Shown in pieces: positions 6,096-63,865 of a DNA stretch of 64,000 bases (positions within the stretch are counted from its first letter, which is position 1; the number at the start of each line of letters is the position of its first letter). Made by a program: the position numbers and the translations under genes. The notes beneath the pieces were generated by a model. It did no database searches, was not told where the DNA came from, and was given only the letters and a program-made list of their open reading frames with translations. The DNA comes from Pegoplata infirma (taxonomy: Eukaryota; Arthropoda; Insecta; Diptera; Anthomyiidae), in assembly GCA_963921195.1 (NCBI GenBank), contig OY992537.1, forward strand, positions 47,621,943-47,685,942. Reading direction: 5' to 3'.

Positions 6096-6099
6096 TTTT

Positions 6100-9000: not shown

Positions 9001-11065
9001 TGTTATCGATAACAAATTTTCTTTAGAAAAGATTGTTATAGATAATAAATTTTCTATCGAAATGTTTTTTATCATTAACAAATTTTCTAAAGAAAAGTTT
9101 GTTCTCAATACAAATTTTCTAAAGAAAATTTTTTCTATAGAAAAGTTTGTTATCGATAACAAATTTTTTATAGAAAAGTTTGATATCAATTCAAATTTTC
9201 TATAGAAAGTTTGTTATCGATACAAATTTTCTATAGAAAAGTTTGTTATCGATACAAATTTTCTATAGAAAAGTTTGTTATCGAAACAAATTTTCTATAG
9301 AAAAGTTTGTTATCGATACAAATTTTCTATAGAAAAGTTTGTTATCGATACAAATTTTCTATAGAAAAGTTTGTTATCGATAAAAATTTTCTAAAGAAAA
9401 GTTTGTTATCTATGAAAATTTTCTAAAATTTTGTATAGAAAAGTTTGTTATCGATAACAAATTTTCTAAAGAAAAGTTTGTTATCGATAACAAATTTTCT
9501 AAAGAAGTTTGTTATCGATACAAATTTTTTATAGAAAAGTTTGTTATCGATAAAAATTTTCTATAGAAAAGTTTGTTATCGATACAAATTTTTTATAGAA
9601 AAGTTTGTTATCGATACAAATTTTTTAAAGAAAAGTTTGTTATCGATAAAAATTTTCTATAGAAAAGTTTGTTATCGATACAAATTTTTTATAGAAAAGT
9701 TTGTTATCGATACAAATTTTCTAAAGAAAAGTTTGCTATCGATAAATTTTTCTATAGAAAATTTTGTTATCGATACAATTTTTTTATAGAAAAGTTTGTT
9801 ATCGATAACAAATTTTCTAAAAAAAAGTTTGCTATCGTTAACAAATTTTCTAAAATAAAGTTTGTTGCCGATAACAAATTTTCTAAGGAAAATTTGTTAT
9901 AATTTTTCTATAAAAAATTTTCTTATTTTGTTATCGATAACAAATTTTCTATAGAAACGTTTGCTATCGATAAAAATTTACTAAAGAAAATTTTGTTATC
10001 GATACAGATTTTCTATAGAAAAGTTTGTAATCGATACAATATTTCTATAAAAAAGTTTGTTATCGATAAAAATTTTCGAAAGAAAAGTTTGTTAGCGATA
10101 CAAATTTTCTATAAATAAGTTTGTTATCGATACAAATTTTCTATAGAAAAGTTTGTTATCGATACAAATTTTCTATAGAAAAGTTTGTTATCGATACAAA
10201 TTTTCTATAGAAAAGTTTGATATTGATTCAAATTTTCTATAGAAAAGTTTGATATCGATACAAATTTTCTAAAGAAGTTTGTTATCGATAACAAATTTTC
10301 TAAAGAAAAGTTTGTTATAAATTTTCTATAGAAAATGTTCTAAAGAAAATTTTTTTATTGATAACAAATTTTCTATAGAAAAGTTTGTTATCGATAACAA
10401 ATTTTCTATAGAAAAGTTTATTATCGATAACAGATTTTCTGTAGAAAAGTTTGTTATCGATAACAAATTTTCTATAGAAAAGTTTGTTATCGATTCAAAT
10501 TTTCTATAGAAAAGTTTGTTATCGATGCAAGTTTTCTAAAGAAAAGTTTTTTATCTATACAAATTTGTATACAAAAGTTTGTTATCGATAACAAATTTTC
10601 TATAGAAAAGTTTGTTATCGATAACAAATTTTCTATAGAAAAGTTTGTTATCGATAACAAATTTTCTATAGAAAAGTTTGTTATCGATAACAAATTTTCT
10701 ATAGAAAAGTTTGTTATCGATAACAAATTTTCTATAGAAAAGTTTGTTATCGATAACAAATTTTCTATAGAAAAGTTTGTTATCGATAACAAATTTTCTA
10801 TAGAAAAGTTTGTTTTCGATAACAAATTTTCTATAGAAAAGTTTGTTACCCATAACTAATTTTCTGAAGAAAAGTTTTTTTATAAAAAATTTTTATCGAT
10901 ACAAATTTTCTATAGAAAAGTTTTTAATCGATGCAAATTTTCTATAGAAAAGTTTATTATGGATACAAATTTTCTATAGAAAAGTTTGTTATCGATACAA
11001 ATTTTCTATAGAAAAGTTTATTATCGATACAAATTTTCTATAGAAAAATTTGTTATCGATACATT
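6100..11065. repeat. Satellite A: ~33-bp palindromic tandem array
   Basis: About 5 kb of head-to-tail units built from two perfect palindromes in alternation: TTGTTATCGATAACAA (16 bp) and TTTTCTATAGAAAA (14 bp). Unit length is about 33 bp, or 31-32 bp in a subtype where ATCGATAAC is shortened to ATCGATAC. The most homogeneous block is 10580-10830, with consecutive near-identical 33-bp units; the edges are more degenerate. Because both halves are dyad symmetric, the array reads almost alike on either strand and could form hairpins or cruciforms. Frames translated from it (repeating KFVIDNKLFYR) are artefacts of the 33-bp period. Each unit contains TATCGATA or TATCGAT. Confidence 0.95.
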
Positions 11066-12285
11066 TTTTTTTGCTATCTAAAGCTTACTGGCACCTGGAT
11101 TAAAAAGAAACGGTGTAGTGGGTCGCGTTTGATTATCTCATCGTAAATAAAGGCTTGGAATTGTTAAGATTTATTTGTTAATTTTAAATCGTATATATTC
11201 TAACCACTTAACTTTGTGTTACTTTGAGCATAGACTCACACATTGCAAACAATTGTGTGTGTGTTTATCTTTTCAATATTTTAGAATTCCAGGTATTTTA
11301 AGTAATTAATTCCTATCGACCATAATGTATGTGCTGCGGTTGAATAATTTCTTTGTCTTTAGCTGTGGGTTATTTGATTTAAAATTATTTTCCTAGAAGA
11401 GAACCTTAAATTTTCTATTGTTTAAATTTAATTTTGAGGAAAACTTTAAACACTTCATATAAATTTTCATGTGAAGAATTTGTATATGATTTTCGGCAGG
11501 ATGTCTATGTGACAGCTGAAAAAAGAAAAACAAAAACAAATTTATATATTATGACCGTGAAGAAGAGACATGTTTTCATTATGTATCAGCATGTATTTGA
11601 AATTGATGAGCCTTTTGTTTGAATTTTAACATATAGTTACATACATAATGCGCCGCTCTTTTGTCAAATATGACAGCTTTATATTGTTACAGAAATATGT
11701 TACAAATGTCAGTTTTATATGTGTGTGTATGTGTTTTGGTTCATACATATTTCATAGAGATTTTACAATTCCCTTTCATACATTTTTTTATGGTTAAAAA
11801 AAAATAAATTTTTTTATGTGTCAAAGTCAAATACAAAAAAATTAATACTATAACGAACCTTTTCATTTACATTTTTATTTTTTTTTATTCTATTTTTTTT
11901 TAAATTCACTTTTCACTTAAGGGTATAGTGATGGTATAATGTTTTTATCCTGGGGTTCGTAACAACCATGATATAATCACGATAAACTCTTTTGATGTTG
12001 TCTTAAGTAAATTCTATGGTATAATACATACAAAAAGCATGTTAGTGTTTGCAGTATTTTTTTTTTTCAAAGTCAGACATAATTTATTCAGATTTATAAG
12101 TTTTTGTTTAAGTTTAACATTTTTTTAATTAAAAAAAAATGTTGTTATGTTAGCCCATTATGATTTCTTTATCTTATTTAAATGGAAAATATTGTTGTCA
12201 TTGTACAACACGACGTATGATTGTTATTATTATAAAACATCGAAATATAATGTATACGCAACGTGAAGCAATTAAGTGTTCGAAT
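11066..12285. other. Gene-free stretch between satellite A and a dispersed repeat
   Basis: No coding region, RNA gene or repeat structure was recognised. A short GTGTGTGTG run lies near 11258-11266 and 11720-11731. Small frames at 11434-11622 and 12160-12384 have no recognisable motif. Confidence 0.4.
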
Positions 12286-13994: not shown

Positions 13995-14545
13995 TTGAAA
14001 TTAATAGTTTCTTCAGAATAAATTTTGACAGTTTCCAACACTACAATTCTATTTCTAGCAATCTCAACCCCAGTTCATACTTTCTTTAAACTTTTTTGTC
14101 TCTTAAATTATCTCGCAAGGGTTACCAACATGGTCTGGAATTGCAGACACAAATGATGGAATTTGCATTTTCTGTTTCGGAGACGTGCCTAATGGCGACA
14201 TATTTTGTCAGTAACTTTATTTGATTTTTTCTGTAAGTACAGATCGAGCACGGGCTCTAATTATATTTGTTATAAGGGTTCAAGTTGAAAAAATGCAGAA
14301 GAAAAATTGAATTTCTAAAAATTATAGACATTTCTGGTATTTTCCTTAACAAGACATTTAAAATCCTACTGATGATGACACTAACTAGGGTGTTTGAAAC
14401 CTGTATAGGAAATACCAGAAATGTCTATAATTTTTAGAAATTCAATTTTTCTTCTGCATTTTTTCAGCTTGAACCCTTATAACAAATATATTTAGAGCCC
14501 GTTCTCGATCTGTACTTACAGAAAAAATCAAATGAAATTAATTTT
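13995..14545. mobile_element. Hammerhead repeat family 1, copy A (inverted fusion)
   Basis: Two partial 442-bp-type monomers are joined head to head. The left arm (13995-14341) lies in the same orientation as the dimer at 39599-40482, with ribozyme sense on the minus strand. The right arm (about 14345-14540) is in the opposite orientation and carries a full hammerhead on the plus strand. The left arm breaks off within the segment CTGGTATTTTCCT, at or within a few bases of the ribozyme cleavage point. TGAAATTAAT occurs at both outer edges and may be a target duplication, although part of it resembles the repeat itself. Confidence 0.7.
14353..14425 (+). ncRNA. Type I hammerhead ribozyme, family 1 copy A
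   Basis: The core can be read directly: CTGATGA at 14369-14375, GAAA at 14396-14399 and a GTA cleavage triplet ending at 14405. Stem I pairs TCCTA (14364-14368) with TAGGA (14406-14410); after an internal loop, GACATTT (14353-14359) pairs with AAATGTC (14419-14425). Stem II is GACAC/GTGTT with a T·T apposition next to the core. Stem III is only AC/GT around a two-base loop, so efficient cleavage would need a dimer. The fold was derived by eye. Activity is not shown. Confidence 0.78.
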
Positions 14546-17035: not shown

Positions 17036-19936
17036 ATGACTGGCAGATTTCGTTTAGGTTTCTGCAACATACGGGGACTAAGGGCAAATTTTATCTTTGT
17101 ATATGCTCACATTCGATTTCATCGGCCGGATGTTTTCGCCTTATGTGAAACCCAGGTAGGAGGAGATGCTGATCCACAGGATTTCCAAATACCTGGGTAT
17201 CAATTTCTATCCCTTTTTGTTTCTCATCGGGGCCTTGCGTTATACATTCGTGAAAATGTTGTGTACCAACTACAGCCACATCTAGGCTGTAGTGATGCGG
17301 AATTTAACACCCTTTGGGTTAAATTCCAAATCAGGACACACATTTTGCACTTCGGGTTCGTCTACAGGAGCCCAAATTTGGACACGGCAAACTCTTACGA
17401 CTATTTAGACTCCGTTTCCGATTCCATTACGGGAATCCTTGGGGCCTGTCCGAGTAGTGAAATAGTCGTTGCCGGGGACTTCAACGTGCACAATTCGTCA
17501 TGGCTGCGCCATTCTAGTCATACGACTCCCGAGGGCTTATATGTTGAGCTCTTCGCTGCACACAATCACCTTGTGCAACTTGTGAATGAACCAACACATA
17601 TTCCGTGTGTTGAAGGGCAGTTTCGTAATACTCTCGACCTTTTTCTCACTTCGCATCCTGACAAATACGAAGTTGAGCTACTTGCGCCTCTCGGAAACTC
17701 GGATCATAACATCATTTCTGCATCCTTTTCATTTTCGGAACTTCATAGTACTTCGAAACCAGCAACGAAGCGCTCTATTTTTATATATGAAAAGGCTCGT
17801 TGGGCTGAGCTTAACGATTTCTTTCAGCATTTCAACTGGAAACTTTGCTTTCTTGATGACAATGTTAACGATGCGGCAGAAATGATTGTAAATGTAATAA
17901 TGCTGGGAATGAAACTATTCATTCCATCGAAGCAAATTTCGACTAAACCTAAACATAAGTGCTGGTTTAATCAGACGTGCCGGAATGCAGTCAGATCCAG
18001 AGAGGATACGTTCAGTAATTGGCGTAATGACAAAAACCCAGTTACTGACGCGTTACGTAAACAGGCGAGAAATGAATGTGCCAGAGTACTCAGACGTGAA
18101 AAGCTTCTTTACGAACAGCGTCTGCGTGCTAAGGTCCTTGCTGCTCCGCGGGGTAGTAAGACCTTTTGGTCATTTGTTAAAAGGGTAAAGAGTAATACTA
18201 GTTCATCCATTCCAACCCTTATAATGAATGACCAAATATTCACTGACCCGGTTGATAAAGCTAACCTTTTTGCTGACATGTTTGCAAGGAATTCATACTT
18301 GCCGGAAAGCAATCAACCACCGCCCGAACTCGAAAGGGTTTCCGTTACTATGTCTAAGATATTTTTTCGAGCGCGTGCAGTTAAAAGAGTTCTTGAAGAT
18401 CTCAACATAAATAAGTCCCCGGGGCCGGATGGTATTACGGCTGTTGTCCTGAAGAAGTGTGCATTGTCGTTGTCTCGTCCTTTGGCAACACTATTTAGCT
18501 ACTCGTACCGGGTAGGAGTTTTTCCCTCTTGCTGGAAGGTGGCTAACGTCCAGCCAATCCCGAAAAAGGGTGAGGCTACAAACCCTGAAAACTACCGTCC
18601 AATAGCAATTTGCTCTACGCTCTCGAAAGTCATGGAGAGCATGATCAATCACCACTTGGTTAATTATCTGGAGTCCAATTCACTCTTGTGTGATCGACAG
18701 TATGGCTTTCGTAGAGGTCGTTCTACGGGGGACCTGTTAGCGTTTCTTTCGGAACGTTGGAGCCGTTCTATTCACAAATTTGGTGAAAGCAAAGTGGTTG
18801 CTCTAGATATTTCCAAAGCGTTTGATCGTGTGTGGCACGGTGCACTCGTTTCAAAACTTATTGCGTTTGGTGTCGGTAGTGTTTTCTCTCGACTTATATC
18901 GAGCTTTCTCAGAGACCGCTCTATACGTGTTGTTATAGATGGGTTCTCATCAAATGAGTTTCATTTAAATTCAGGGGTACCGCAAGGCTCTGTTCTTTCT
19001 CCTACACTTTTTCTTATTTTTCTTAACGACCTCCTGGGTCTAACTTCCAATCCTATCTATTCTTTCGCAGATGACAGCAACATTTGTCATTCATTTTCCT
19101 TTAATCATAGACCAAGCCTTACTGAGGTTGAAGCTATGAGGCGGAACATGAATGACACACTCAATCATGACCTCACGAAAATCTCCGAGTGGGGTCTTGC
19201 GAATAGGGTCGATTTTAATGCTCGTAAGACCCAATGTTGTATGTTGACCCACAGACGACCTGTGGAATCAGCGTCATCTGTATCCATGGGTGGTATAGCT
19301 ATTGAGGAATCAGAAACTCTTGATGTTCTAGGCATGAAAATCCAATGTGATGTTCGTTGAAACAAACATGTTTTTCAAGTGTCGAAAGAAGCATTCAAGT
19401 GTCTTGGTTTCTTAAAACGGTGCAAGAATTACTTCACCCCGTCTGATCTCCTCACTATTTATACCGCCTATATCCGGCCGAAATTGGAATACAACTCCCA
19501 TATCTGGGCAGGTGCTTCAAGGTCTATCTTGAAGCTTCTGGATCGGGTGCAAAGGAGTGCGTTGAAGCTCATCAATGACAGTAGGGTATCCAGCTCTATT
19601 GACTCATTGGAGCATCGTCGGAATGTGGGTTGTGCGTCATTGTTCTATCGATATTACCACGGTAAGTGTTCAGCTGAAATGGGAGAACTCATCCCTGTGT
19701 CGCGGGTGCATGCCCGTAGTACTCGCCTTTCCAGCAGATCACATCCGTTTGTTGTTGACTGTCCAATGTCTCGCACAACGCATTACAGAGAAAATTCGTT
19801 TCTCGGTCGAACCAGCCGTATGTGGAATAAACTCCCGGCAGAAGTCTTCCCAGTCAGCTATAATTTAGAAAAATTCAAATTAAATGTCCACAAACACTAC
19901 TCCCTATTTCCTTCTCCTCATAACCTATTTTCCTAA
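17036..19936 (+). pseudogene. LINE 1 ORF2: AP endonuclease + reverse transcriptase, one stop
   Basis: This ORF would nick target DNA and reverse-transcribe element RNA. The N-terminal endonuclease/exonuclease/phosphatase domain (about residues 1-230) keeps Asn11, Glu38 (CETQV), GDFN 147-150 and SDH 222-224. The reverse transcriptase (about 440-720) shows NKSPGPDGI near 459, NYRPIAI, LDISKAFDRVWH, SGVPQGSVLSP and the catalytic box FADD at 677-680, with Phe where many RTs have Tyr. Codon 775 is TGA (19358-19360), and the same frame continues for another 191 codons to 19936 (SKEAFKCLGFLKRC and following). One nonsense change therefore breaks an otherwise open 966-residue frame. The clade is probably CR1- or jockey-like, not settled by eye. 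Confidence 0.88.
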
Positions 19937-22275: not shown

Positions 22276-22545
22276 GTTAAAAAGAAAGTATGAGGTGATG
22301 TCGGGATTGCTATAAATAGAATTGTAGTGTTGGAAACTGTCAAAATTTATTTTGTAGAAACTGTAAATATTCACATATATAAAAAAACTATTTCCATTAA
22401 CAAGACAAGCCGACATTTAAAATTCTACTGATGATAACACCAACTGAAGTGTTTGAAACCGGTACGGGAATACCAGAAATGTCTATAATTTTTAAAAATT
22501 CAATTCTTCTTTTGCATTTTTTCAACTTTAACCCTTATAAAATAT
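22275..22545 (+). mobile_element. Hammerhead repeat family 1, copy B (partial monomer)
   Basis: About 270 bp matching the reverse complement of the 442-bp unit at 39599. It runs from the AAAGAAAGTATGAGGTGA region, through AGAATTGTAGTGTTGGAAAC, to the ribozyme and on to CAACTTTAACCCTTATAA. It follows directly on a TTCACCAGCTGGTGAA repeat. More diverged than the dimer. Confidence 0.7.
22412..22483 (+). ncRNA. Hammerhead ribozyme, family 1 copy B (diverged)
   Basis: CTGATGA at 22428-22434, GAAA at 22455-22458, stem III as self-complementary ACCGGT, and GTA at 22462-22464. The outer stem I is intact (GACATTT 22412-22418 with AAATGTC 22477-22483). Stem II is AACAC/GTGTT: the pair that is G·U in the other copies is A-U here, consistent with selection for pairing. 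The inner stem I is damaged (TTCTA opposite CGGGA, one mismatch and two G·U), so this copy is probably weak or inactive. Confidence 0.65.
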
Positions 22546-25030: not shown

Positions 25031-25419
25031 TAACACCGTCCGACAGCCAATAATAAACATGTACCGGATAATATAAGTCTGAATATGGTGATCAAATGGA
25101 GCAAAACTGAATTACAGTTTTTCATGATCATGTTTTCTTTTAAAAGGACTGAAAAGTTTTAAAGGATTACATTTTATAAAATATTTTTTAAACATTTGTA
25201 CTTTTCTGATAATGTCACAACTGATGGCAAATTAAAGAGGAGAGTCTCCGCTAAAATCCATATTTTGATTTTGCCATATCTAGTGATGGGATTCTACCCG
25301 GTATTTACCCGATGCATGCGTTAATACCGGGTAAATAAAAGATTTCCTTTTTTGGGAATTTATTTGGGTATTTATAAAAAGCATTTGAAATCCAACATAT
25401 GGCAAGCTCTGGTATACTT

Positions 25420-26110
25420 TTTTGGAAAAAAGTATTTTTTTCTAAAAAAAATATTTTTTTCTAAAAAAAAGTACTTTTTTGTAAAAAAAGTAGTATTAAA
25501 GTACTTTTTTTAGAAAAAGAAATTTTTTTAGAAAAATTCTTTTTTTTGGGAAAAAGTAAATTTTTTACAAAAAAAGGGCTTTTTTATAAAATGTATCTTT
25601 TTTTTAAAAAAAAGTACCTTTTTTAGAAAAACGTACCTTTTTTTTTAGAAAAAGTACCTTTTTTAGAAAAAAACTTTTTTTTAGAAAAGTTCCTTTTTTT
25701 AGAAAAAAGTACTTATTTTAGAAAATGTACCTATTTAGAACAAGTACTTTTTCCTAAAAAAGTAGTAAAAAATTTACTTTTTAAAAAAAGTACTGTTTTG
25801 TCTAAAAAGTAAATTTTTTTCTAAAAATATCTTTATTTTTTAAACAAGTACTATATTTTGTAAAATAATACTTTTTAGGTAAAAAATTACCATTTTTTAT
25901 AAGATACTTTTTTCCTGAAAAAGTTTCTTAAAGGTGATATAGTACTTTGCTAAAGAAGTACTATTTTACCAAAAAATGCTACTTTTTATAAAAGAAACAC
26001 TGTCTCTCTAAAAAAGTACCGTTTTTTCTAAAAAGTACTATTTTTCTAAAAAAAGTACTTTTTTCTAAGAAAGTACTATTTTTTAGTACAAAATTTTTTA
26101 AATTTTACTG
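25420..26110. repeat. GTACTTTTTTTAGAAAAAA minisatellite
   Basis: Degenerate alternation of AAAAAGTACTTTTTT and TTTTTTAGAAAAA blocks, self-complementary through GTAC. A second block of the same type occupies 26600-26690 and 27480-28060. It forms the interior of the hAT-like element. Confidence 0.8.
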
Positions 26111-26790
26111 CAAAATGTTTTTGTTCACCAAATTTTGTTCACCAAAATACCCGGTTATTTACCAATTTCTACCCAATTTACCTATTTTACTGGGTATTTA
26201 CCATTTGGGTATTTACCCTTTGCCAATATTAAACATGAACTGGATAATATGCGTCTGAATATAGAGATCAAATGGAGCAATACTGAATTACAGTTTTTCA
26301 TGATCATGTTTTCTTTTAAAAGGACTTAAATGGTTTAGAGGATTACATTTTGTAAAATATTTTTTAAACATTTTTACTTTTCCTAAAATGTTACAATTGA
26401 TGGCAAATTAAAGAGGAGAGTCTCCGCTAATTTTTACATTTTTTGATTTTTCCATACTTAGTGATGGGATTCTTCCCGGTATTTACCCGATGCATGTGTA
26501 AATACCAGGTAAATAAAAGATTGCCTGTTTGGGAATTTATTTGGGTATTTATAAAATGCATTTGAAATCGAACATAATGCAAGCTCTGGTATACTTTTTT
26601 GGAAAAAAGTGTTTTTTTTTTCTAAAAAAAAGTACTTTTTTGTAAAAAAAGTAGTATTAAAGTACTTTTTTTTAGAAAAAAAAAAATTTTATATATTCGA
26701 TTAGAGTTTTATTCTAGTTCGAGGCCCAAAAATATTTCTATTTATGATATTGTCATAATAGAGTATTTTTAATTTATTGCTTTAAAAAAG

Positions 26791-26866
26791 TTACTATCTC
26801 ATAGTATGTCTGTACTGATCAGTTTCATCCCCACTAAAGGAATCTTCAGCAGACTTTAGAGAATCA
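26791..26866 (-). ncRNA. Type I hammerhead ribozyme, family 2 unit 1
   Basis: Read on the minus strand: CTGAAGA (complement of 26843-26849), stem II TCC/GGA with a T·T apposition at the core side, GAAAC (complement of 26822-26826), stem III ACTG-AT-CAGT, and GTA with cleavage after it (complement of 26813-26815). The inner stem I pairs GTCTG with CAGAC (five perfect pairs). After an internal loop, TCTC pairs with GAGA. All invariant core bases are present. Stem III is longer (4 bp) than in family 1, which favours activity as a monomer. The fold is by eye. Confidence 0.75.
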
Positions 26867-27286
26867 TCGTTGGTCAATCAAACATCAAACCAGACATAAT
26901 ATTTGATATATTTCCCAAGTTATATGAGAAGTACTATTATGAAGGTCCGAAATCTGTTTTCCAACAAAAATAACTCTTTTAAAGCAAAAATTGTATATAT
27001 TAAATCACCGTCGGTAACTATTAATATATGTGTTGCTGTTATTTTACAATAACAACAGTGCCTAACCAAACAATAGTGTTGGTAGGATAAGTCGTACTAA
27101 ACTTTGTGTTAAATGTTGTTTTTTTATTTTTAGTACCAAAAGGTACATAAAAATAAAATGTATTTATTCGGCCTTTATATATGTATATATTTTCGATTAG
27201 AGTTTTATTCTAGTTCGAGGCCCAAAAATATTTCTATTTATGATATTGTCATAATAGAGTATTTTTAATTTATTGCTTTAAAAAAG

Positions 27287-27362
27287 TTACTATCTCATAG
27301 TATGTCTGTACTGATCAGTTTCATCCCCACTAAAGGAATCTTCAGCAGACTTTAGAGAATCA
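27287..27362 (-). ncRNA. Type I hammerhead ribozyme, family 2 unit 2
   Basis: The sequence appears identical to the ribozyme at 26791-26866 and lies 496 bases downstream: core CTGAAGA is the complement of 27339-27345 and GAAAC of 27318-27322. Two ribozymes in tandem would release a 496-nt monomer RNA from a minus-strand transcript. Confidence 0.75.
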
Positions 27363-28469
27363 TCGTTGGTCAATCAAACATCAAACCATAATCGAATATA
27401 TATACATATATAAAGGCCGAATAAATACATTTTATTTTTATGTACCTTTTGGTACTAAAAATAAAAAAACAACATTTAAAAAAAATTTTTTTTTGGGAAA
27501 AAGTTTTTTTTTACAAAAAAGTACTTTTTTATAAAAAGTAACTTTTTTTAGAAAAAAGTACATTATTATTAGAAAAAAGTACCTTTTTTTCAAAAAAATA
27601 CGTTTGTTTTTTTAGAAAAAGTAACTTTTTTTAGAAAATAGTACTTATTTTAGAAAATGTACTTTTTTTAGAACAAGCACTTTTTTCTAAAAAAGTAATA
27701 AGAAATTTACTTTTTAAAATAAGTACTTTTTTCTCTAAAAAGTAATTTTTTTTCTAAAAATTACTTTATTTTTGAAAAAAGTACTATATTTTCTTAAATA
27801 ATACTTTTTACGTAAAAAATTACCATTTTTTTTGAAATAAGTACTTTTTTCCTGAAAAAGTGTCTTAAAGGTGATATAGTACATTGTTAAGTAGTACTAT
27901 TTTACCAAAAAAATGCTACTTTTTCTAAAAGAAACACTCTCTCTCTAAAAAAAGTACTTTTTTCTATTTTTCCAAAAAAACTGTGTTTTTCCTAAAAAAC
28001 TACTATTTTTCTAAAAAAAGTACTTTTTTCTAAGATAGTACTATTTTTTAGTACAAAATTCATTAAATTTTACTGCAAAATGTTTTTGTTCACCAAATTT
28101 TTCCCGTTTTGAAAAATACCCGGGTTTTTACCAATGTCTATTCAATTTACCTATTTTACCGGGCATTTACCATTTGGGTATTTACCCATCTCTAGTCATA
28201 TCAATAACATAATTTTGTAAAAAAATTTAAATGAAATTAAAGAATACCCTTTTTAATGACATTACTTACCTTCTTTTCCCTGATATGTCAAAATAATAAA
28301 ATGGGAAAATTAGCGGATATCCCCCTCTGTCATTTGCTGTCACTTTAAATTTAATCCTCTAAAACTTTAAAGCCTTTTTAAAAGAAAACAGGATCCCGAA
28401 TGAAAAACTGTAAATGCAGTTTTACTACATTTAGTTTCTAGTTTCAAATGTATATTATCCAGTTGATCT

Positions 28470-39507: not shown

Positions 39508-39653
39508 TATATATGGGGGTATTTCATTCGAAAAGTCACGGAATTGTTAATCTGCCCCTGTATTAAAAAAAAAACATTTAAGAAAAATCAAAAATATAAT
39601 AAGGGTTCAAGTTGAAAAAATGCAGAAGAAAAATTGAATTTCTAAAAATTATA

Positions 39654-39726
39654 GACATTTCTGGTATTTCCTATACCGGTTTCAAACACCCCAGTTAGTG
39701 TCATCTTCAGTAGGATTTTAAATGTC
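39654..39726 (-). ncRNA. Type I hammerhead ribozyme, family 1 dimer unit 1
   Basis: On the minus strand: GACATTT, loop, TCCTA, core CTGAAGA, stem II GACAC/GTGTT, GAAA, self-complementary stem III ACCGGT, GTA cleavage triplet, TAGGA, loop, AAATGTC. Inner stem I is TCCTA/TAGGA and outer stem I GACATTT/AAATGTC. Every invariant base of the CUGANGA and GAAA core is present. Stem III has no loop of its own, so two ribozymes pairing through ACCGGT in a dimer is the plausible active form. The T·T next to the core replaces the usual G-C. Confidence 0.82.
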
Positions 39727-40095
39727 GGGTTGTCTTGTTAATGAAAACTGTTTTTTATATATGTGAATATTTATAGTTTCTACAGAATAAATTTTGACAG
39801 TTTCCAACACTACAATTCTATTTCTAGCAATCTCAACCTCACCTCATACTTTCTTTCAAGTTTTTTGTCTCTTACATTATTTCGCAAGGGTTACCAACAT
39901 GATCTGGAATTGCAGACACAAATGAAGGAATTTGCATTTTCTGTTTCGGAGACGTGCCTAATGGCGACATATTTTGTCAGTAATTTTATTTGATTTTTTC
40001 TGTAAGTACAGATCGAGCACGGGCTCTAATTATATTTGTTATAAGGGTTCAAGTTGAAAAAATGCAGAAGAAAAATTGAATTTCTAAAAATTATA

Positions 40096-40168
40096 GACAT
40101 TTCTGGTATTTCCTATACCGGTTTCAAACACCCCAGTTAGTGTCATCTTCAGTAGGATTTTAAATGTC
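40096..40168 (-). ncRNA. Type I hammerhead ribozyme, family 1 dimer unit 2
   Basis: The sequence appears identical to the ribozyme at 39654-39726 and lies exactly 442 bases away. Cleavage at both sites in a minus-strand transcript would release a 442-nt linear RNA. Confidence 0.82.
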
Positions 40169-41362
40169 GGGTTGTCTTGTTAATGAAAACTGTTTTTTAT
40201 ATATGTGAATATTTATAGTTTCTACAGAATAAATTTTGACAGTTTCCAACACTACAATTCTATTTCTAGCAATCTCAACCTCACCTCATACTTTCTTTCA
40301 ACTTTTTTGTCTCTTACATTATTTCGCAAGGGTTACCAACATGATCTGGAATTGCAGACACAAATGAAGGAATTTGCATTTTCTGTTTCGGAGACGTGCC
40401 TAATGGCGACATATTTTGTCAGTAATTTTATTTGATTTTTTCTGTAAGTACAGATCGAGCACGGGCTCTAATTATATTTGTTATATATAATATTTCCGCC
40501 CTCTGGATGTGTTTTTGGAACTTTTTTAAGAGTTCAAAAACATCCGTTGTTTTAAATTTTCGTGTAGAATCGACTGGTGGAATCAGATTTGCAATATTTT
40601 CAGCTGTTTTCGAACCATTGAAAAATCAGCTCAAAATCCGCGTTTTCAGAGGCATTGAACCACCCCAAGGAGCCAAAATTTGTCCCAAAAAATACCACCA
40701 TTGTTTTGATCTCCCCTAAAGCCTTCAAAAAAAATATATTTATATGAGAAGTTTTTTAACGAAAACAAAAAACTCGTTAGGGGGTACGCGTCTGACAAAA
40801 TTTAAATTTAGGGGTACGCGAGCCAAAAAGGTTGGTAACCGCTGGTTTAGAGGATTAAATTTTATAAAATATTTTTTGATATTTTCCCTTATTTTCCTAT
40901 TTAATAATTTTTACATATCAGGAAAAAGGAGGTAAGTTACGTCCTTTCAAAACTTTATCCTTCAAGATCATACAAAATGTTCAACAAAATATTTTTATAA
41001 AATTTTCAAAGGACTTTATTTCAAATCCTTTTATCCAGATATGGCAAAATAAAAAAATTAAAATTAGTGGAGATCCTCCTCTTTCATTTGCCATCACCAG
41101 TGGCACCCTAGGATAATATTTTACAAAATGTATTCTTTAAAACTTCAAAGTCCTTTTAAAAGGAAACAGGATCATGAAATGAAAAACTTTAAAATTTGAT
41201 CTCTACTTTCAGAAATATATCATCCGTTAATTAATATTGGCTGTCGGACGATGTTATGAGCATTTCAGGTTCAAAATTATGCTTATTTGAAGTTTACAAA
41301 ATTATAAGTCTGGCCAATAGTGCATAGAAAAAATCGTTTAACAAAATAAAATGATTCTAGAC

Positions 41363-42089: not shown

Positions 42090-43127
42090 CTGAAATTTAC
42101 TATAGAAAATTTTAAGTTGTCGATGTATCGATAACTGTAACAATTTTCTATACAAAATTTAAAAATATCGATATATTGATCACTGTAACAATTTTCTATA
42201 GAAAATTTTAAGTTGTACATCGATAACTGTAACAATTTTTAATAGAAAATATTTTGTTATCGATATATCGATAACTGTAACAATTTTCTATAGATAATTT
42301 TTTGTTATCTATATATCGATAACTGGAACAAATTTCTATAAAAAATTTTGAGTTATCGATATATCGATAACTGTTACAATTTTCTATAAAAAATTTTAAG
42401 TTATCGCTATATCGTTAATTGTAAAAATTTTCTATCGATCACTTTAAGTTATCGATATATCGATAACTGAAACAATTTTCTATAGAAAATTTAAATTTAC
42501 CGATATATCGATAACTGTAACAATTTGCTATAGAAAATTTTAAGTTATCGATATATCGACAACTGTAACAATTTTCTATAGAAAATTTTAAGTTATCGAT
42601 GTATCGATAACTGTAACAATTTTCTATAGAACACTTTAATTTATCGATTATTTTAATTTTCTATAGAAAAGTTTAAGTTATCGATATATCGATAACTGTA
42701 ACAATTTTCTATAGAAAATTTAAGGTAATCGATATATCGATAATTGTAACAATTTTGAAATTTTCTATAGAAAATATTAAGTTACTGTAACAATTTTCTC
42801 TAGAAAATTTTAAGTTATCGATAACTGTAACAATTTTCTAAAGAACATTTTAAGTTTCGATAACTGTAAAAATTTTCTATAGAAAATTTTGAGTAACTGT
42901 AACAATTTTTTATAGAAAATTTTAAGTTATCGATATATCGATAACTGTTACAATTTTCTATAAAATATTTTAAGTTATCGATATATCGTTAATTGTAAAA
43001 ATTTTCTATCGATCACTTAAAGTTATCGATATATCGATAACTGAAACAATTTTCTGTAGAAAATTTAAATTTACCGATATATCGATAACTGTAACAATTT
43101 TCTATAGAAAATTTTAAGTTATCGATA
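42090..43127. repeat. Satellite B, left block (~48-bp unit)
   Basis: Tandem units of about 48 bp composed of the palindrome AGTTATCGATATATCGATAA(CT), then GTAACAA, then TTTTCTATAGAAAA(TTTT). Variants lack one ATCGAT or carry deletions. A higher-order period is visible: TTTTCTATCGATCACTTTAA at about 42427 returns at 43004 as TTTTCTATCGATCACTTAAA, 576 bases on, with the same following variants. The array shares TATCGATA and TTTTCTATAGAAAA with satellite A. It is continuous with 49128-51395 once the inserted element is removed. Confidence 0.92.
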
Positions 43128-43413
43128 TACCCGAGTAAAAATGTTTAGATATAATTATATCTTACAAGATATGATGGTATATATTTATATCTTATGCGAG
43201 ATCAAATTATATATAACCAGATATGTTAGATCTGTTCCTATATACGACGATATCTTGTACCATATCTTGTTATATCTTCTATCATATCTGTCACTAGAGC
43301 AATATTTATATGCATTCATCTATAAACTCAATCAAACAACTTATCGTTATACAATTCGATTTTAAATGAACACCCTCTATTTTGAAAATCTTCATCATTT
43401 TAATTTGTTTTGA

Positions 43414-44010
43414 GATTTAATTCGGATAAGATATTTGTTGCATCAGACTGTTACTTGGGAGTCTCCCAGATCTAAGGAAAGGGAAATTCAATGCTACCGT
43501 TGTCAAATGTGGGGACACACGTCTCGTAATTGTAATAGAAAGTTTTGTTGTGTTAAATGCGATAAGGAGCACGAGCCGGGTAAATGTGGGGTTAGTAAGG
43601 ATGATGAAACTTCAGTACCTATTTGTACAAACTGCAGAACGGAGGGACATACTGCAAACTATAGAGGATGTCCGTTTTTTAAACAATATCAAAGGGATAG
43701 AAAGGCTCGGATAAGCTCTGCTATGCAGAAAAGATCTCAGGCAGTTAATAATGTTAGGGAGACGGTAACACAAGGTAATGTTGTGCCCGGCAGGTCTTAT
43801 GCCAGTAATTTTCACCCTGAATCTCAGGAGGTCCGTAGAAGACCAGCTATTATTGATGAATTTCTTAAGGTGGCAGAATATTTTGGAGAGGAAACCTTAG
43901 AATTAAAGATAGCCAATTTTATGCGTTCTTATAGATCATTTCCAAAAGAGATAGCTAGGGAAGAGTATGGTAAATTAATGCGGGAAGTTATGGCACAATA
44001 TGGCCCGTAA
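43414..44010 (+). CDS. LINE 2 ORF1: Gag-like protein, C-terminal part
   Basis: Nucleic-acid-binding Gag that packages LINE RNA. The frame is open from the first base of the insertion and no ATG precedes the zinc fingers, so the N-terminal part was lost by 5' truncation. Counted from the TTG at 43435, three knuckles follow: C20-C23-H28-C33 (CYRCQMWGHTSRNC), C39-C42-H46-C51, and C64-C67-H72-C79. A triple CCHC array is usual for Gag of jockey/I/R1-type LINEs. The C-terminal ~110 residues are basic then acidic (VAEYFGEETLELKIANFM) and end in EVMAQYGP. The stop TAA overlaps the ORF2 start region. As it stands the copy cannot make full Gag. Confidence 0.85.
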   Translation, partial: DLIRIRYLLHQTVTWESPRSKEREIQCYRCQMWGHTSRNCNRKFCCVKCDKEHEPGKCGVSKDDETSVPICTNCRTEGHTANYRGCPFFKQYQRDRKARISSAMQKRSQAVNNVRETVTQGNVVPGRSYASNFHPESQEVRRRPAIIDEFLKVAEYFGEETLELKIANFMRSYRSFPKEIAREEYGKLMREVMAQYGP

Positions 44011-46909
44011 TCATTTGAATATAATGGCTTTTAACGTTAGATCTTTAATAGAGACCAGTAGAAGAATAGAGTTGGGTAGGATACTTGAGGAGAATAGGAT
44101 AGACGTTGGCTTCGTTCAGGAGACTCATGTTTCTGCAAATATAGCCATTCAACTGCATAATTACAACACCGTAAGGGATAGCTCTCCTCAAGGCACGGCA
44201 ATATTTATAAAGAAGAATATAGAATTTTCAATAATATATATATCAGGAGTGGAATTTCCAAGTTGTTTTATAGAACTAAAACTTATCACTTCAGCTCAAC
44301 CCAAAAGAATCCTTTTAGGAAGTTTGTATATACCTACTAATTTTACAAATGACAGATTTTTATCGAGCTTGGATAATATAAGGAATGTATCGTGGTCATA
44401 TGATGGCACAATTGTAGGTGGCGACCTCAATGCCAGGAACATCACTTGGGGTGACTCTATGTCAAACATGAATGGCAGAAATCTATACAATTGGTTGGAA
44501 GACTCGTCGCCACAATTCAGAAGAATATGTGACAGTACCCCCTCCTTTCCTAATGGATCCTCTTTCCTTGACCACTTTTTGATCAGTGAGAATATACTAG
44601 ATTTCAATAATTCAAACTTTTCTATCTCTTCTGTTTCATCTTTTTCTGACCATTTCCCCCTTAAGCTGCAAATTAGCTTACCAAGTTTCGATCTTATATA
44701 TCTGCCGCCCCGCTGTTTCACTTCGTTTGAGAAGACTGTATGGAGTGATTTTAAAAGTGATCTCGATGTGGAATTAGCGGAATGTCCTATACCAGTTGAC
44801 AGATCCTTAGATGATTCGGAAATTGACACCTTTATTGAAAATTTTACAAATTGTGTTAATCGTACGGTAGAAGCCCACTCAGAATCAATTGAATTAGGAA
44901 ACAGAAAATTTTGTGTTCCAGATGATATTCAGAATCTTTTTAGGATAAAACGATGTTGGCAAAGAAGATTGAAAAAGATCTTTCACAGAAATCTGAATAG
45001 AAGAAATTCTGAATATATGACACTGTCAACGCAGATTAACTTGCTGAAGATAATTATAAAACAAAAAGTTGAAATACATCAAACAAATATGTTTAACGAA
45101 CGATTACAAAACATTAGGCCTGGGACGTCCGCTTACAGACAAATCTATAACGCAATTGGGAATAAGAGGAAAGAACAGTTTCCTAAACTTATTGTTGACA
45201 ATAGTACTTATGTAGAGGATTCGGATAAGGTTCAACAATTTAGGCACCATTTTTCGCAGATTTATTCACGTCAGTTACCATGCGGTCCTCATATTCCTGA
45301 TATTGTGTCAACTATCGATTCATGCATTTCCCCGTGTGCTTCGAGAATTTATTCTTTTAGTGAGGATTTTCAATCACTCGAAAATACCGATACATCTCAT
45401 TTTACGGACTCAGTTGAAGTTGTATCCACCATTGGATTGCTTAATGCCAAAAAATCTGCGGGTGTGGATAAAATTTCTAATTTTCTTATTAAAAAGTTTT
45501 CTTTGTATGCCGTTGATTATTTAGCAGTTATTTTTAATAATTGCATTAACAATGGCTACTTTCCGAATTCCTGGAAAGTAGCGAAAATTTATCCGTTGCA
45601 AAAGAAGGCAAATTCATATGAGATAAATAATGCTAGGCCTATTTCTATGTTGTCGAATTTGGGGAAGCTGTTTGAGAGAATAATAAGGAAGAAAATGGAT
45701 TTAAATGTTAACGTCGAATATATTCAGCAAAATCAATTTGGATTTAAGATAAATCATTCTTCAGCACACGCTTTGCTCAAGTTTCACGATGATGTATTGC
45801 AGAATCTCAGACAGGAGCGTTGCACAGTTGCAGTTTCGTTAGATATAGAGAAAGCTTTCGACCGTGCCTATCAGGATGGTATAATATTTAAGCTTATACA
45901 AATAGGATTTGACCCTTTTATTGTAAAGCTGCTTAAAAGTTTTTTTGAGAGCAGAACTTTCTTTGTTCAAATGAATCTGACTTGTTCTCAACGAGCTCCT
46001 GTGTACAGTGGGGTACCTCAGGGCTCAATTTTAGCTCCCCTTCTCTATAGTATATTAATCTACGATTTTCCTCACTACTTCAATGATTCCCAGAGCATCC
46101 TTTACGCGGATGATTCACTTGTATATGCCCATGATGCATCACCAAATATTGCATTAGAGCGAGTTTATGCTCATCTAATAGTTATTAATGATTATTATAT
46201 AAAATGGGGGGTAAAGATAAATCCGAATAAATCTGAGGCCATATGCATAAGGAATCCTTCCGGCAAGTGTCCATATTATGTGGTCCCGCAGAGTAAGCGT
46301 TTAAAATTGACATTGAATGGCATTAATATTCCTTTCCATGATAACATCAAATATCTTGGCGTAACGTTCAGTAAACTACTTAAATTTAATGGTCATGCTC
46401 GAAGTGCCAAAACAAGGGCATTCAAGGTGAAGTCAATGTTTTCTAAACTTTTAATGAATCGTTACTTGAGTAGGGAATCAAAGCTTCTAATTTATAAGGT
46501 GAGTATCAGACCTGTTATATTGTATGGGTTTACGATTTGGTTTACCATTTCACCTACGGTTGCTAAAGAGCTCGAAATTATGGAGAGAAGCGTATTAAGA
46601 ATGTGTGTTAATCGTAATTTCCAGTCATACAATAAAAGATTTTCGAATAGATTTATTTATGAAGAGTCAAATGTCACTCCCTTATTCAACTATGCCCTGA
46701 CTCTTTTGAGAACCTTTGTACAAAGAACCCAATTCCATGATAATACGTTGATTTCGGACATTTATAGCCGTGAAATAGCTTTTAGTTGGTCAGACAACTT
46801 TTATATATCCCCTATTGGGGTGCTTAACGAGGACGCTGGAGCGCTAAGCGATGTTCCACTCCTACCTGAATTTTACAGACAAAACGACCGCACTTGTCAT
46901 CGTGGCTAA
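44000..46909 (+). CDS. LINE 2 ORF2: AP endonuclease + reverse transcriptase, intact
   Basis: 969-residue replication protein with no stop or frameshift. The start ATG at 44000 overlaps the ORF1 end by 11 bases in another frame, as in many jockey-type elements, where ORF2 is reached by reinitiation or frameshift. The endonuclease domain (1-230) keeps Asn12, Glu41 (QETH), GGDLN 140-144 and SDH 216-218. The reverse transcriptase (about 470-740) has KKSAGVDKIS, NARPISMLSNLGKLFERI, LDIEKAFDRAY near 613, YSGVPQGSILAPLL and the catalytic YADD at 702-705. A C-terminal region (IYKVSIRPVILYGFTIW) follows. No RNase H domain was recognised. Jockey/I-group assignment is likely but by eye. Confidence 0.93.
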   Translation: MARNHLNIMAFNVRSLIETSRRIELGRILEENRIDVGFVQETHVSANIAIQLHNYNTVRDSSPQGTAIFIKKNIEFSIIYISGVEFPSCFIELKLITSAQPKRILLGSLYIPTNFTNDRFLSSLDNIRNVSWSYDGTIVGGDLNARNITWGDSMSNMNGRNLYNWLEDSSPQFRRICDSTPSFPNGSSFLDHFLISENILDFNNSNFSISSVSSFSDHFPLKLQISLPSFDLIYLPPRCFTSFEKTVWSDFKSDLDVELAECPIPVDRSLDDSEIDTFIENFTNCVNRTVEAHSESIELGNRKFCVPDDIQNLFRIKRCWQRRLKKIFHRNLNRRNSEYMTLSTQINLLKIIIKQKVEIHQTNMFNERLQNIRPGTSAYRQIYNAIGNKRKEQFPKLIVDNSTYVEDSDKVQQFRHHFSQIYSRQLPCGPHIPDIVSTIDSCISPCASRIYSFSEDFQSLENTDTSHFTDSVEVVSTIGLLNAKKSAGVDKISNFLIKKFSLYAVDYLAVIFNNCINNGYFPNSWKVAKIYPLQKKANSYEINNARPISMLSNLGKLFERIIRKKMDLNVNVEYIQQNQFGFKINHSSAHALLKFHDDVLQNLRQERCTVAVSLDIEKAFDRAYQDGIIFKLIQIGFDPFIVKLLKSFFESRTFFVQMNLTCSQRAPVYSGVPQGSILAPLLYSILIYDFPHYFNDSQSILYADDSLVYAHDASPNIALERVYAHLIVINDYYIKWGVKINPNKSEAICIRNPSGKCPYYVVPQSKRLKLTLNGINIPFHDNIKYLGVTFSKLLKFNGHARSAKTRAFKVKSMFSKLLMNRYLSRESKLLIYKVSIRPVILYGFTIWFTISPTVAKELEIMERSVLRMCVNRNFQSYNKRFSNRFIYEESNVTPLFNYALTLLRTFVQRTQFHDNTLISDIYSREIAFSWSDNFYISPIGVLNEDAGALSDVPLLPEFYRQNDRTCHRG

Positions 46910-48596: not shown

Positions 48597-49127
48597 TAGC
48601 TTGATACCTGCAATGCAGGTCCTGCATTTTTGGCGAACTTTTCAAGAAACTTTATCAGGGTTTTTAAGTTAAAAAAAAACTGGTATTATATTTTCCTTAT
48701 GCCTCTACCTCTCATTACAACAATAATAAATGAGCCTTAATAATTGTTTATCTTTTTTATAAAAACTTTTTAAAAAATATTTTTTACCTATTTTATTGTA
48801 TGTAAATCATTATTAAGTAGTACTAAATAAAATTTAGTTATTATCATTTGTAATAAAAACGTGTTTTTTTCTATTTGTTTTTAAAAATTTTTTTGCAAAA
48901 ATCAATATTATTCCCATATACTACAATATCAGTTCTGATCAATTGAGATCCAATAAGATCAGAATATATATGGGACAAATGTCGGATCCAACGAGATCTA
49001 AATTGATCAGTTTGTATCAGAGCTGATATAATTAGATCGGGTCAATTTCCGGATCTAATAAGATCTGATTATATATTGATCGAGATCTAAATAGATATGG
49101 TGCAGTATCAAAATTTTTACTCGGGTA

Positions 49128-51395
49128 TCGACAACTGTAACAATTTTCTATAGAAAATTTTAAGTTATCGATATATCGACAACTGTAACAATTTTCTATA
49201 GAACACTTTAGTTTATCGATTATTTTAATTTTCAATAGAAAAGTTTAAGTTATCGATATATCGATAACTGTAACAATTTTCTATAGAAAATTTAAGGTAA
49301 TCAATATATCGATAATTGTAACAATTTTAAAATTTTCTATAGAAAATATTAAGTTACTGTAACAATTTTCTCTAGAAAATTTTAAGTTATCGATAACTGT
49401 AACAATTTTCTAAAGAACATTTTAAGTTTCGATAACTGTAAAAATTTTCTATAGAAAATTTTGAGTTACTGTAACAATTTTCTATAGAAAATTTTAAGTT
49501 ATCGATATATCGATAACTGTAACAATTTTCTATAGAAAATTCTTAGTTATAGATATATCGATAACTGTAACAATTTTCTATAGAAAATTTTTTGTTATCG
49601 ATATATCGATAACTGTAACAATTTTCTATTGAAAATTTTCTATAATAAATTTGAAGTTATTGATATATTGACAATTTTCTATAAAAAATTATTTGTTATC
49701 GATATATCGATTACTGGAACAATTTTCTATAAAAAATTTTAAGTTATCGATGTATCGATCACTATTTAACAATTTATATAAAAAATGTTAAGTTATGGAT
49801 ATATCGATAACTGTAACAATTTTCTATAGAAAAATTTAAGTTATCGATAGCTGTAAAAATTTTCTATAGAAAAAATCGATGTATCGATAAGTTAAAACAC
49901 TTGTCTAACTGTAGCAATTTTGTGTAGAAAGTTTTAAATTATCGATAGCTGTAATTATTTTCAATAGAATATTTTAAGTTATTGATAACTGGATAGTTTT
50001 CTATAGAAAGTTTTAAATTATCGATAATCGATCGCTCATTGATGTATCAGTTATTGTTCAATTTTCTTGTAGATTGATATTGCATAATAAAGAAAATTAT
50101 TCATTTATCGATAACTAAAAATTGTCTTAAAAAACTTTGCAGTTATCTATGTATCGATATTTTAACCTTTTCTTAAACAAATTTTGCAGTTATCGATGTA
50201 TCGATAACTTAACATTTTCAGGTAATTTTTTCGATGTATCGATAACTTAATTTTTTTTTTTTTGAAAATTATGCAGATGTCGATGTTTCGATAAATAAAA
50301 TTTTTTATAGAAAGTTTTGCAGTAATCGATAACTTAAAATTTTCTATAGGAAATTATGCAGTTATCAATGTATTAAGAACTTACAATTTTTTATAGGAAA
50401 TTTTTAAATTTTTAACTTAAAATTGTCTATAGAAAATTATGCAGTTATCGATGTATTGGTAACTTAAAAATGTCTGTAGAAATGTATGCAGCCATTGATG
50501 AATTGATAACTTAAAACTTTCCATAGAAAATTATGGATTTATCGATGTATATGTAACTTAAAATGTTCTATAGAATATTAAGCTGTTATCGATGTATCGA
50601 TAACTTAAAATTTTCTTTTAAAAATTATGAAACTATCAATGTATTAATAAATAAAAATTTTCTTTAGAAAATTATGCAGTTATCAATAGCTTAATATTTT
50701 TTAAAGAAACTTATCCAGATATCGATGAATTAATAATTGAAAATTTATAGAATAGTATGAAGTTATCGATGCATCGATAACTTAATATTTCTTAAATAAA
50801 ATAATGCAGTTATCCATAAATCAATAACTTAAAATTTTCTAAAGAAAATTATGCAATTTATTAAAATTTATTAAAGTATCGAGAAATCAACATTTTGTAT
50901 TAAAAATTATGCAGTTATCGATGCATTGACAACTCAAAATGTTTTTTAAATTGTTTATGGAAAACTATGCAGTCATCAATAAAATTAATTTTCCAATAGA
51001 AAACTACTAAAGTTATGGATGTATCGATAACTCAAATCTTTCTGTTAAAAATTATTACAGTTATCGTTGCGGCGACAACTTAAAATTTTCTATAGAAAAT
51101 TGTTGAAGTTATCGATGTATCGATAACTTAAAATTAGCTATAGAAAACTGTTGAAGTTATCAATAACTTAAAATTTCTATAGAAAATTATTACAGTTATC
51201 GATGTTTATAGAAATTTTTACAGTTTTCAATCTTAAAATTTACTACGGAAAATAAAAATAAAATTAGTTATAGAAAATTATTACAGTTATCGATGTATCA
51301 ACTTAAAATTTTGTATAGAAAATTATGAAGTTATCGATGAACAATTTTTTCACTGTATCGATTACAATGCATTTTTCTATTGATACATCGTTCTT
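49128..51395. repeat. Satellite B, right block, degenerating distally
   Basis: Continues the 48-bp array. 49128-49850 is regular and includes the same variant string as the left block: ACTTTAGTTTATCGATTATT at about 49206 against ACTTTAATTTATCGATTATT at about 42633. From about 50000 the unit shifts to a 46-47 bp form, TTATGCAGTTATCGATGTAT then CGATAACTTAAAATTTTCT, with growing divergence and insertions toward 51395. The gradient from regular to degenerate marks the array edge. Confidence 0.88.
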
Positions 51396-61419: not shown

Positions 61420-63865
61420 GCCCAAACCACTGAAGCTAGAGTCTTGAAATTTTGATTGTAGTTTCACCTCCTGGAATACATATCCACTAAGGCTGGGTTT
61501 TTGGAAATGTTGATTTTAAGGGGTAAAAATGAAGGGTTGAAAAAGGGGAAAAAGCGACTACTTTGGTACTTTTTATTTTTTCTGAAAAAAATTCAATTAA
61601 TTTGAAATTTGAAATTTAGGATCCTCTAACGGAAAAACATTCCCAAAAAAAGAACTTTCTGGAAATTCGGATTCCTAAGGGTTAAAAGGGGTAAAAAATT
61701 GTACTTTGGTACTTTTTATATTTTTTGAAATTAAGGTCCTACAAAAATATTAAAATTTTCAATGGTGGTTCCAACAACGGAAAAAATTCTGAAAACGTAC
61801 TTTTTCGAAATTCCAATTCTAAGGGGGGTAAAAAACGAGTACTTTGGTACTTATTATTTTTTCTGAAAAAAAATCCTATTAATTCGAAAATTGGAATGTA
61901 GGATCCTCTAACGGAAAAACATTCCCAAAAAAAAGTACTTTCTGGAAATTCGGATTCCTAAGGGTAAAAAGGGGTAAAAAATGGTACTTTGGTACTTTTT
62001 ATATTTTTTAAAATTAAGGTCCTACAAAAATATTAAAATTTGCAATGGTGGTTCCAACAACGGAAAAAATTCTGAAAACGTACTTTTTCGAAATTCCGAT
62101 TCTAAGGGGGGTAAAAAAACGAGTACTTTGGTGCTTTTTATTTTTTCTGAAAAAAAATCCTATTAATTCGAAAATTGGAATGTAGGATCCTCTAACGGAA
62201 AAACATTCCCAAAAAAAGTACTTTCTGGAAATTCGGATTCCTAAGGGTAAAAAGGGGTAAAAAATTGTACTTTGGTACTTTTTATATTTTTTTAAATTAA
62301 AGTCCTACAAAAAAAACTAAAATTTGCATTGTTGTTTCCAACAATGAAAAAAATTATGAAAAAGTACTTTTTCGAAATACCGATTCTAAGGGGGGTAAAA
62401 AGCGAGCACTTTGGTACTTTTTATTTTTTCTTGAAAAAAATCCTATTAATTTGAAAATTGGAATGTAGGATCCTCCAACGGAAAAACATTCCCCAAAAAA
62501 GTACTTTCTGGAAATTCGGACTCCTAAGGGTAAAAAGTGGTAAAAAAATTTACTTTGGTACTTTCTAAATTTTTTGAAATTATGGTCCTACAAAAAAATT
62601 TTAAAATGTTAGTTCCAACAACGGGGAAAATTTTGAAAAAGTACTTTTTCGAAATTTCGAAAAATAAAAAAATTTATTTTGGTACTTATTATAATTCTTG
62701 AAATTATAGTCCTGGAAACTTTAAATTTGGAATACAGATTTCTAAAAAAGGCAAAGAATTTTTTGTTTTTTAGCGCCTACCGAAGTGTAGATCCTTTAAG
62801 GCTGAGTTTTTGGAAAGGTTGATTCTAGGGAATAGGGGTAAAAAAGGTATTTTGGTACTTTTTATATTTCCACAAACCACTGAAGCTAGAGACTTGAAAT
62901 TTGGAATATAGATGCACCTCCCGGAATATAGGTCAACTAAGGCTTGGGTTTTGAAAATGTTGATTCTAAGGGGGTAAAATGTGCAAAAACAGGTACGTTA
63001 GTACTTTTTATAGTTCCACAAACCAATGAAGATAGAGATTTGAAATTTGAAATGTAGCTGCATCTCCCGGAATATAGATCCACTAATGCTGGGTTTTTTG
63101 AAATAATGATTCTATGGGGGTAAAACGGGTAAAAAAGGTATTGTGGTACTTTTTATATATACTTAAATAATGGCTTTATTAGCTTTAAATTTGGAATGTA
63201 GCATCCCATGCTTAAATAACGATCATAAAAACTTAAAATTAGGAATGTAAGATCCAACAACAGAAAAAAACTATTTCTAGCAAATATCAAACAATCAATT
63301 TAGCTGCGATTTTGGAAATGTTGATTCTAAGGGGGTAAAAAAAGGTATTTTGATACTTTATATATTTCCACAAACCACTGAAGCAATACACTTGAAATTT
63401 GGAATGTAGGTGGACCTCCTGAAATGTAGATCCAATAAGGCTGGGTTTTTGGAAATGTTGATTTTAAGGGGGTAAAAGGGGTAAAATAGGTACTTTGGTC
63501 CTTTTTTTATTTCCACAAATCACTGAAGCAATACACGTGAAATTTGAGACCTCCTGAAATGTAGATCCAATAAGGCTGCGGATTTGGAAATGTTGTTTCT
63601 AAGGGGGTAAAAGGGGTAAAAAAAAGTACTTTGGTCCTTTTTTTTATTTCCACAAACCACTGAAGATAAACACCTAAAATTTGGAATGTGGGTGCACCTT
63701 CTGAAATGTAAATCCAATGAGGCTGTATTTTTGGAAATGCTGATTCTAAGAGAGTAAAAGGGACAGAAAAGGTACTTTGTATAGCACATTTTATATTTCT
63801 ACAAACAACTGAGGCTATAGACTTGAAATTTGGAATGTAAGTGCACCTCCCGGAATATTTTATAT
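61420..63865. repeat. Tandem repeat array (~283 bp, then ~145 bp units)
   Basis: From 61555 to about 62700 a ~283-bp unit is repeated four times: TACTTTGGTACTTTTTATTT words at about 61558, 61841, 62124 and 62406, each followed by AGGATCCTCTAACGGAAAAA, TTCTGGAAATTCGGATTCCT and GGTTCCAACAACGG. On both sides (61420-61555; 62700-63865) shorter ~145-bp units run CCACAAACCACTGAAGCTAG, ACTTGAAATTTGGAATGTAG, AAGGCTGGGTTTTTGGAAAT, TGATTCTAAGGGGGTAAAA. The 283-bp form looks like a dimeric variant of the shorter unit. The array is cut by a LINE 1-family copy at 63866. Confidence 0.85.

Follow-up and report, generated by a model that had tools for sequence, protein, structure and literature searches.

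The Pegoplata infirma DNA analysed here (64,000 nucleotides of contig OY992537.1, assembly GCA_963921195.1, hereafter the window) contains a head-to-tail dimer of a 442-bp unit, and the minus strand of each unit carries the core of a type I hammerhead. We give a probability of about one half to the reading that the dimer arose by a single insertion of a retrozyme-like, non-autonomous retroelement, which a Penelope-like element (PLE) would have copied from circular or multimeric RNA. As far as the letters tell, the ribozyme and the insertion ends of the dimer look like those of PLEs. The elements may be a further example of the known retrozyme-like kind, their interest lying mainly in a possible tie to PLE copying.

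The dimer and its hammerhead core

A 442-bp period of 2.0 copies was found by TRF at 39599-40485, and direct comparison of the two units gave a single mismatch in 442 positions (39860 G / 40302 C), which bears out the head-to-tail pair described in the earlier note. The units thus diverge by 0.2%, against approximately 4-10% between the unit and the other loci of this family (family 1) in BLAST. Therefore, one template appears to have given both dimer units. The features of the dimer are as follows.

39599..40040, minus strand: unit A of the family 1 dimer, 442 bp (TRF and direct comparison)
40041..40482, minus strand: unit B of the family 1 dimer, 442 bp (TRF, direct comparison and flanking repeats)
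39602-40484: dimer insertion, taken as the stretch between the flanking repeats
39654..39726, minus strand: unit A hammerhead core, with the cut predicted between 39674 and 39673
40096..40168, minus strand: unit B hammerhead core, with the cut predicted between 40116 and 40115
39754..39761, minus strand (second copy 40196-40203): putative TATA box TATATAAA, 57 nt upstream of the unit AUG, in AT-rich DNA
39594..39601 and 40485..40492: direct repeat ATATAATA, 8 bp, putative target-site duplication

On the minus strand, the dimer core reads GACATTT-aaaa-TCCTA-CTGAAGA-T-GACAC-TAACTGGG-GTGTT-T-GAAA-CCGGTA/TAGGA-aataccag-AAATGTC, with the slash at the predicted cut. Both the conserved letters and the stems of a type I hammerhead are found in each unit as previously described, while the word 'complete' for this ribozyme was an overstatement. 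Stem III of the dimer core is ACC/GGU with zero loop bases, and stem II opens with a U.U pair in all four family 1 cores as well as in a second family (family 2, see below). CUGANGA, GAAA and an NUH cleavage triplet are present in all four family 1 cores and in both family 2 cores. The dimer has CTGAAGA and the cores at 14369 and 22428 have CTGATGA; position 7 of the hammerhead is variable, so CTGAAGA is permitted. Stem I of these cores is interrupted by an internal loop, as in classical type I hammerheads.

Since stem III is minimal and loopless, it would be weak or impossible within one molecule. Its self-complementarity could let it join two copies. In co-folding, two family 1 cores are predicted to join via the outer stem I and not via ACCGGU, and the family 2 cores through a 10-bp palindrome.

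An AUG in the dimer (CTGAAG-ATG-ACAC) overlaps the start of stem II, which puts the predicted cut at +31. The frame that follows, read directly, stops after 20 codons. An AUG in this position is also found at 14369. The core at 22428 carries ATA there, preceded by an ATG one codon upstream, and family 2 carries ATT. We infer that an AUG over A9-U10.1-G10.2 would account for the U at position 10.1, but this leaves the ATT of family 2 and the ATA at 22428.

Both dimer cores also contain a hairpin, GGTAT-aggaa-ATACC, that lies across the predicted cut and rivals the hammerhead fold (-11.1 vs -10.5 kcal/mol for the hammerhead in the dimer core). Judged from folding predictions, it might be a switch or it might be incidental. 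A candidate tertiary contact between loop II and the internal loop of stem I (CUGG/CCAG in the dimer, UAGU/ACUA in family 2) was rejected: shuffled loops match in approximately 10% (dimer) and 13% (family 2) of cases, and the 4-bp match is absent from the two other family 1 cores.

Further loci in the window

The dimer reported in the earlier note stands, and the window holds two more family 1 loci and a second hammerhead family that had been missed.

13996-14540: inverted pair of family 1 (locus 14), minus arm 13996-14342 and plus arm 14353-14540 (BLAST)
14353..14425, plus strand: hammerhead core of locus 14, CTGATGA at 14369, stem III of only 2 pairs
22281..22541, plus strand: 5'-truncated family 1 monomer (locus 22), ending at the dimer's ACCCTTAT(AA) site
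22412..22483, plus strand: core of locus 22, CTGATGA at 22428, found by the covariance model
26691..27477, minus strand: family 2 element, an inverted arm and approximately 1.4 units of 496 bp
27293..27358, minus strand: family 2 hammerhead core, first copy (descriptor and covariance model)
26797..26862, minus strand: family 2 hammerhead core, second copy (descriptor and covariance model)
26679..26690, partner 27478-27489: A8T4 flanking repeat of family 2, 12 bp, low complexity

Both arms of locus 14 cross the unit junction, so that the junction CTTAT/AACAAATAT occurs in the dimer and in each of the two arms. At locus 22, the first pair of stem I is broken and the strict descriptor does not match. 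Family 2 consists of two 203-bp stretches 496 bp apart, each with a hammerhead (100% identical with an ungapped repeat finder, 99.5% in BLAST), preceded by an inverted arm (27099-27208 vs 27380-27489, 94%). Its stem III is ACUGA/UCAGU. Outside the core it is unrelated in sequence to family 1, with short matches only in BLAST, and it served as an independent control.

Insert-free counterparts in the window were retrieved for locus 14 (approximately 3125-3519, 72% over 420 columns) and for family 2 (25259-25806, 82% over 552 columns). At locus 22, paralogues were limited to the left flank, and two of them reach the insertion point; those of the dimer in the window cover part of its left flank only.

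Support for the hammerhead fold

An ordinary tandem duplication at the DNA level, carrying a chance look-alike of a hammerhead, would leave a similar dimer. Part of the folding evidence is in line with this. The check with Infernal and Rfam proposed in the earlier note returned nothing at gathering score, and at lax thresholds a hammerhead model (RAGATH-1-hammerhead) was named in one of six scans, with 12 bits and an E-value of 8.4 against a gathering score of 56.3. The folding energy of the core is ordinary (z of -1.53, with 12 of 200 shuffles folding as well). The hammerhead is the minimum-energy fold at 14369, but not for the dimer, 22428 or family 2 cores.

However, a descriptor made of the conserved letters and the three stems gave five matches at three loci in the window, compared to 0.03 on average across 200 dinucleotide-shuffled sequences, six of which had a match. 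A looser descriptor scan of the window added no further loci. When one strand of the stems was shuffled, the observed pairing was reached per 100000 shuffles 0 times for the dimer, once for 14369, 5 times for 22428 and 192 times for family 2.

The two families also match by structure and not by sequence. A covariance model with hammerhead pairing was built exclusively from family 2 (its two rows being identical), and the window was scanned with filters off. Directly after family 2 itself, this model ranks the four family 1 cores, with 27.9 bits and an E-value of 3.8e-5 (twice), 23.0 bits and 0.001, and 22.3 bits and 0.0016; the best background match has 14.1 bits and an E-value of 0.4, the E-values being rough after a short calibration. 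With a sequence-only model of the same letters, the dimer cores come after three background matches (E-values of 0.84 and 0.92), and the cores at 14369 and 22428 are not listed. In an alignment of six matches (four distinct), 98.3% of the 60 cells pair and 9 of the 16 pairs have changes on both sides, although the alignment had itself been fitted to this structure and the changes amount to a single contrast between the two families. None of 500 shuffles reached as many both-sided changes, and slid versions gave at most one.

Since the families match by structure where the sequence-only model fails, the hammerhead fold common to both looks real. According to the earlier note, the lack of both a covariance-model hit and cleavage of a dimer transcript would speak against the ribozyme; on the covariance side, the missing Rfam hammerhead at gathering score is partly answered by the family 2 model. 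A model of one family that finds a second one is also a route, in this window, to minimal hammerheads which escape Rfam. With the dimer junction occurring at locus 14 as well, a duplication with a chance look-alike is very improbable.

Insertion ends and flanking repeats

The earlier note saw the dimer bracketed by ATATA. A flanking repeat does exist, but it is the longer 8-bp ATATAATA. An 8-bp match arises in approximately 5% of 20000 draws at AT-rich control places, and as a target-site duplication the repeat is therefore only suggestive. Direct repeats at loci 14 and 22 were rejected as target-site duplications, as they measure merely 5 bp.

The dimer and locus 22 share their 3' end, at unit position 442, or at 439 when the shared TAT is counted as flank. 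Counted from the AUG, this common end falls at +103 to +106; it is 72-75 nt further downstream than the predicted cut, which indicates that the inserted copy is not an end-to-end self-cleaved linear monomer. Ends near +106 are found in two of the four insertions (dimer and locus 22), with locus 14 ending elsewhere and family 2 at approximately +153. The dimer insert comprises two whole units, with both of its ends at one point of the unit circle. A circular template would explain these ends; microhomology at TATA could do so too.

Comparison with known elements

According to PMC11167929, the PLE PAc of Anolis carolinensis has its cut at +26, its reverse transcription start at +111-118, an AT-rich target and an AUG where stem II begins, and its insertion in vitro is independent of ribozyme cleavage. 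As described in PMC7761336, PLE hammerheads are minimal, i.e. without the non-conserved nucleotides of helix III. They have also been described as devoid of tertiary contacts. The families reported here resemble published PLEs in the minimal type I hammerhead, the tandem and inverted copies, the AT-rich target and the flanking repeats of 8-12 bp and, at some of the loci, in the AUG over the start of stem II, the cut approximately 30 nt into the frame and the internal 3' end approximately 106 nt in. The inverted arms and the 8- and 12-bp flanking repeats fit PLE copying more weakly than the other features. In contrast to PLEs, no reverse transcriptase or GIY-YIG ORF was found among the 10 of 131 window ORFs tested, the units directly adjoin each other, an internal loop interrupts stem I, the AUG is missing from family 2, and family 2 and locus 14 end elsewhere. 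In Penelope of Adineta vaga, head-to-head inverted repeats are usual and the repeat ends 12 codons into the ORF, or 22 with the tail (PMC3846280). The start site is thus not fixed among PLEs, and the agreement with PAc (+106 vs +111), which rests on few positions, may be accidental.

Short, tandem, non-coding and dispersed type I units, as expected of a retrozyme, are all found here, and 442 bp is slightly above the reported size range. According to PMC7229834 and PMC7761336, metazoan non-LTR retrozymes share with the present families short non-coding type I units in dimers upwards and direct repeats of more than 4 bp. A GC content below 50%, also reported for retrozymes, is seen in the units here (32% and 28%), but the window itself has 28%. 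They differ in size, with approximately 170-400 nt reported against 442 and 496 bp here. Invertebrate retrozymes are described as having mostly a stable helix III, whereas it is minimal in these families, and retrozymes are reported to use circRNA, which is a putative intermediate here. The retrozyme-like reading of the earlier note thus keeps its tandem, non-coding and dispersed type I units, the junction at two loci and the flanking repeats, while in detail the elements look more like PLEs.

The newt satellite 2 and axolotl retrozymes (PMC6155905, PMC7229834) are likened here by architecture only: in these, too, stem III is too short for a monomer and a dimeric hammerhead is expected, although the amphibian copies are very many, compared to a short array in one window. 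Hammerheads have also been described in dipteran genomes, including Musca domestica (PMC7936874); unlike the present ones, these have type III topology and are said to resemble HDV-like agents. Insects are mentioned once in PMC7229834 among the taxa with such repeats. A limited literature search found no published description of this family, which is no claim of its absence from print. Exact-pattern scans of virus and prokaryote contigs gave 0 stretches, a result that the host groups make weakly informative.

Proposed origin of the dimer

In the literature, the machinery that mobilises metazoan retrozymes is open, with PLEs named as likely candidates without proof. Copying by a PLE, the reading preferred here, would proceed as follows; its transcription, cleavage, circle and PLE enzyme are deduced from the features above. 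The unit would be transcribed in the minus orientation, and the hammerheads of a multimeric transcript would cut after GUA, probably via two copies joined at the self-complementary stem III or with the aid of a protein. The unit-length RNA would then be circularised, or an uncut multimer used instead. A PLE enzyme acting in trans would nick AT-rich DNA, with reverse transcription beginning inside the RNA, approximately 103-106 nt downstream of the AUG over stem II. Copying of at most two units would result in head-to-tail, truncated or inverted copies.

Alternatively, the unit might be the pLTR (pseudo-LTR) of an autonomous PLE and the dimer two such pLTRs whose ORF was lost, with neither an independent family nor a circle. 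The pLTRs of PLEs are described as carrying minimal type I hammerheads, as standing in tandem or inverted, and as including the ORF start, and solo pLTRs are known in rotifers (PMC3846280). However, the junction without an ORF is shared by two loci, as it occurs in the dimer and in each arm of locus 14; this speaks for an ORF-less form that propagates, and the 20-codon frame after the dimer AUG also stands against a pLTR. This origin is considered rather doubtful.

A metazoan non-LTR retrozyme moved by other machinery, e.g. a LINE, is unlikely. The window does contain LINE ORFs with a reverse transcriptase and an Exo_endo_phos-type endonuclease, and LINEs as helpers are left open in the published accounts, but the fixed internal 3' ends without poly-A, the inverted arms and the AUG over stem II fit PLEs better.

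Within the preferred reading of PLE copying, it is tentatively possible that the families link PLEs and retrozymes as pLTR-derived, ORF-less circular RNAs, which PLEs would copy from a fixed internal site, so that the dimer ends coincide. With 3' ends near a PLE-like internal start, an AUG over stem II and hardly any ORF, such insertions would make the mobilisation of retrozymes by PLEs open to test in a fly.

Other features of the window

In a non-LTR retrotransposon at 43435-46909 (RVT_1, Exo_endo_phos_2), a zinc-knuckle-like ORF is overlapped by the endonuclease/reverse-transcriptase ORF that comes after it. For the LINE ORF at 44000-46909, the best named relative is from Haematobia irritans, with 51% identity over 32% of the query, and 40 matches score higher; this makes a muscoid fly a likely host. 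A second non-LTR retrotransposon frame (RVT_1, endonuclease) is split in two ORFs at 17036-19936. Using TRF, long degenerate arrays of short palindromic units, e.g. TTTTCTATAGAAAA and TATCGATA, were identified at 6096-11068, 42094-43129 and 49126-51205, together with a 283-bp tandem repeat at 61545-62660, with four copies that are 91% alike.
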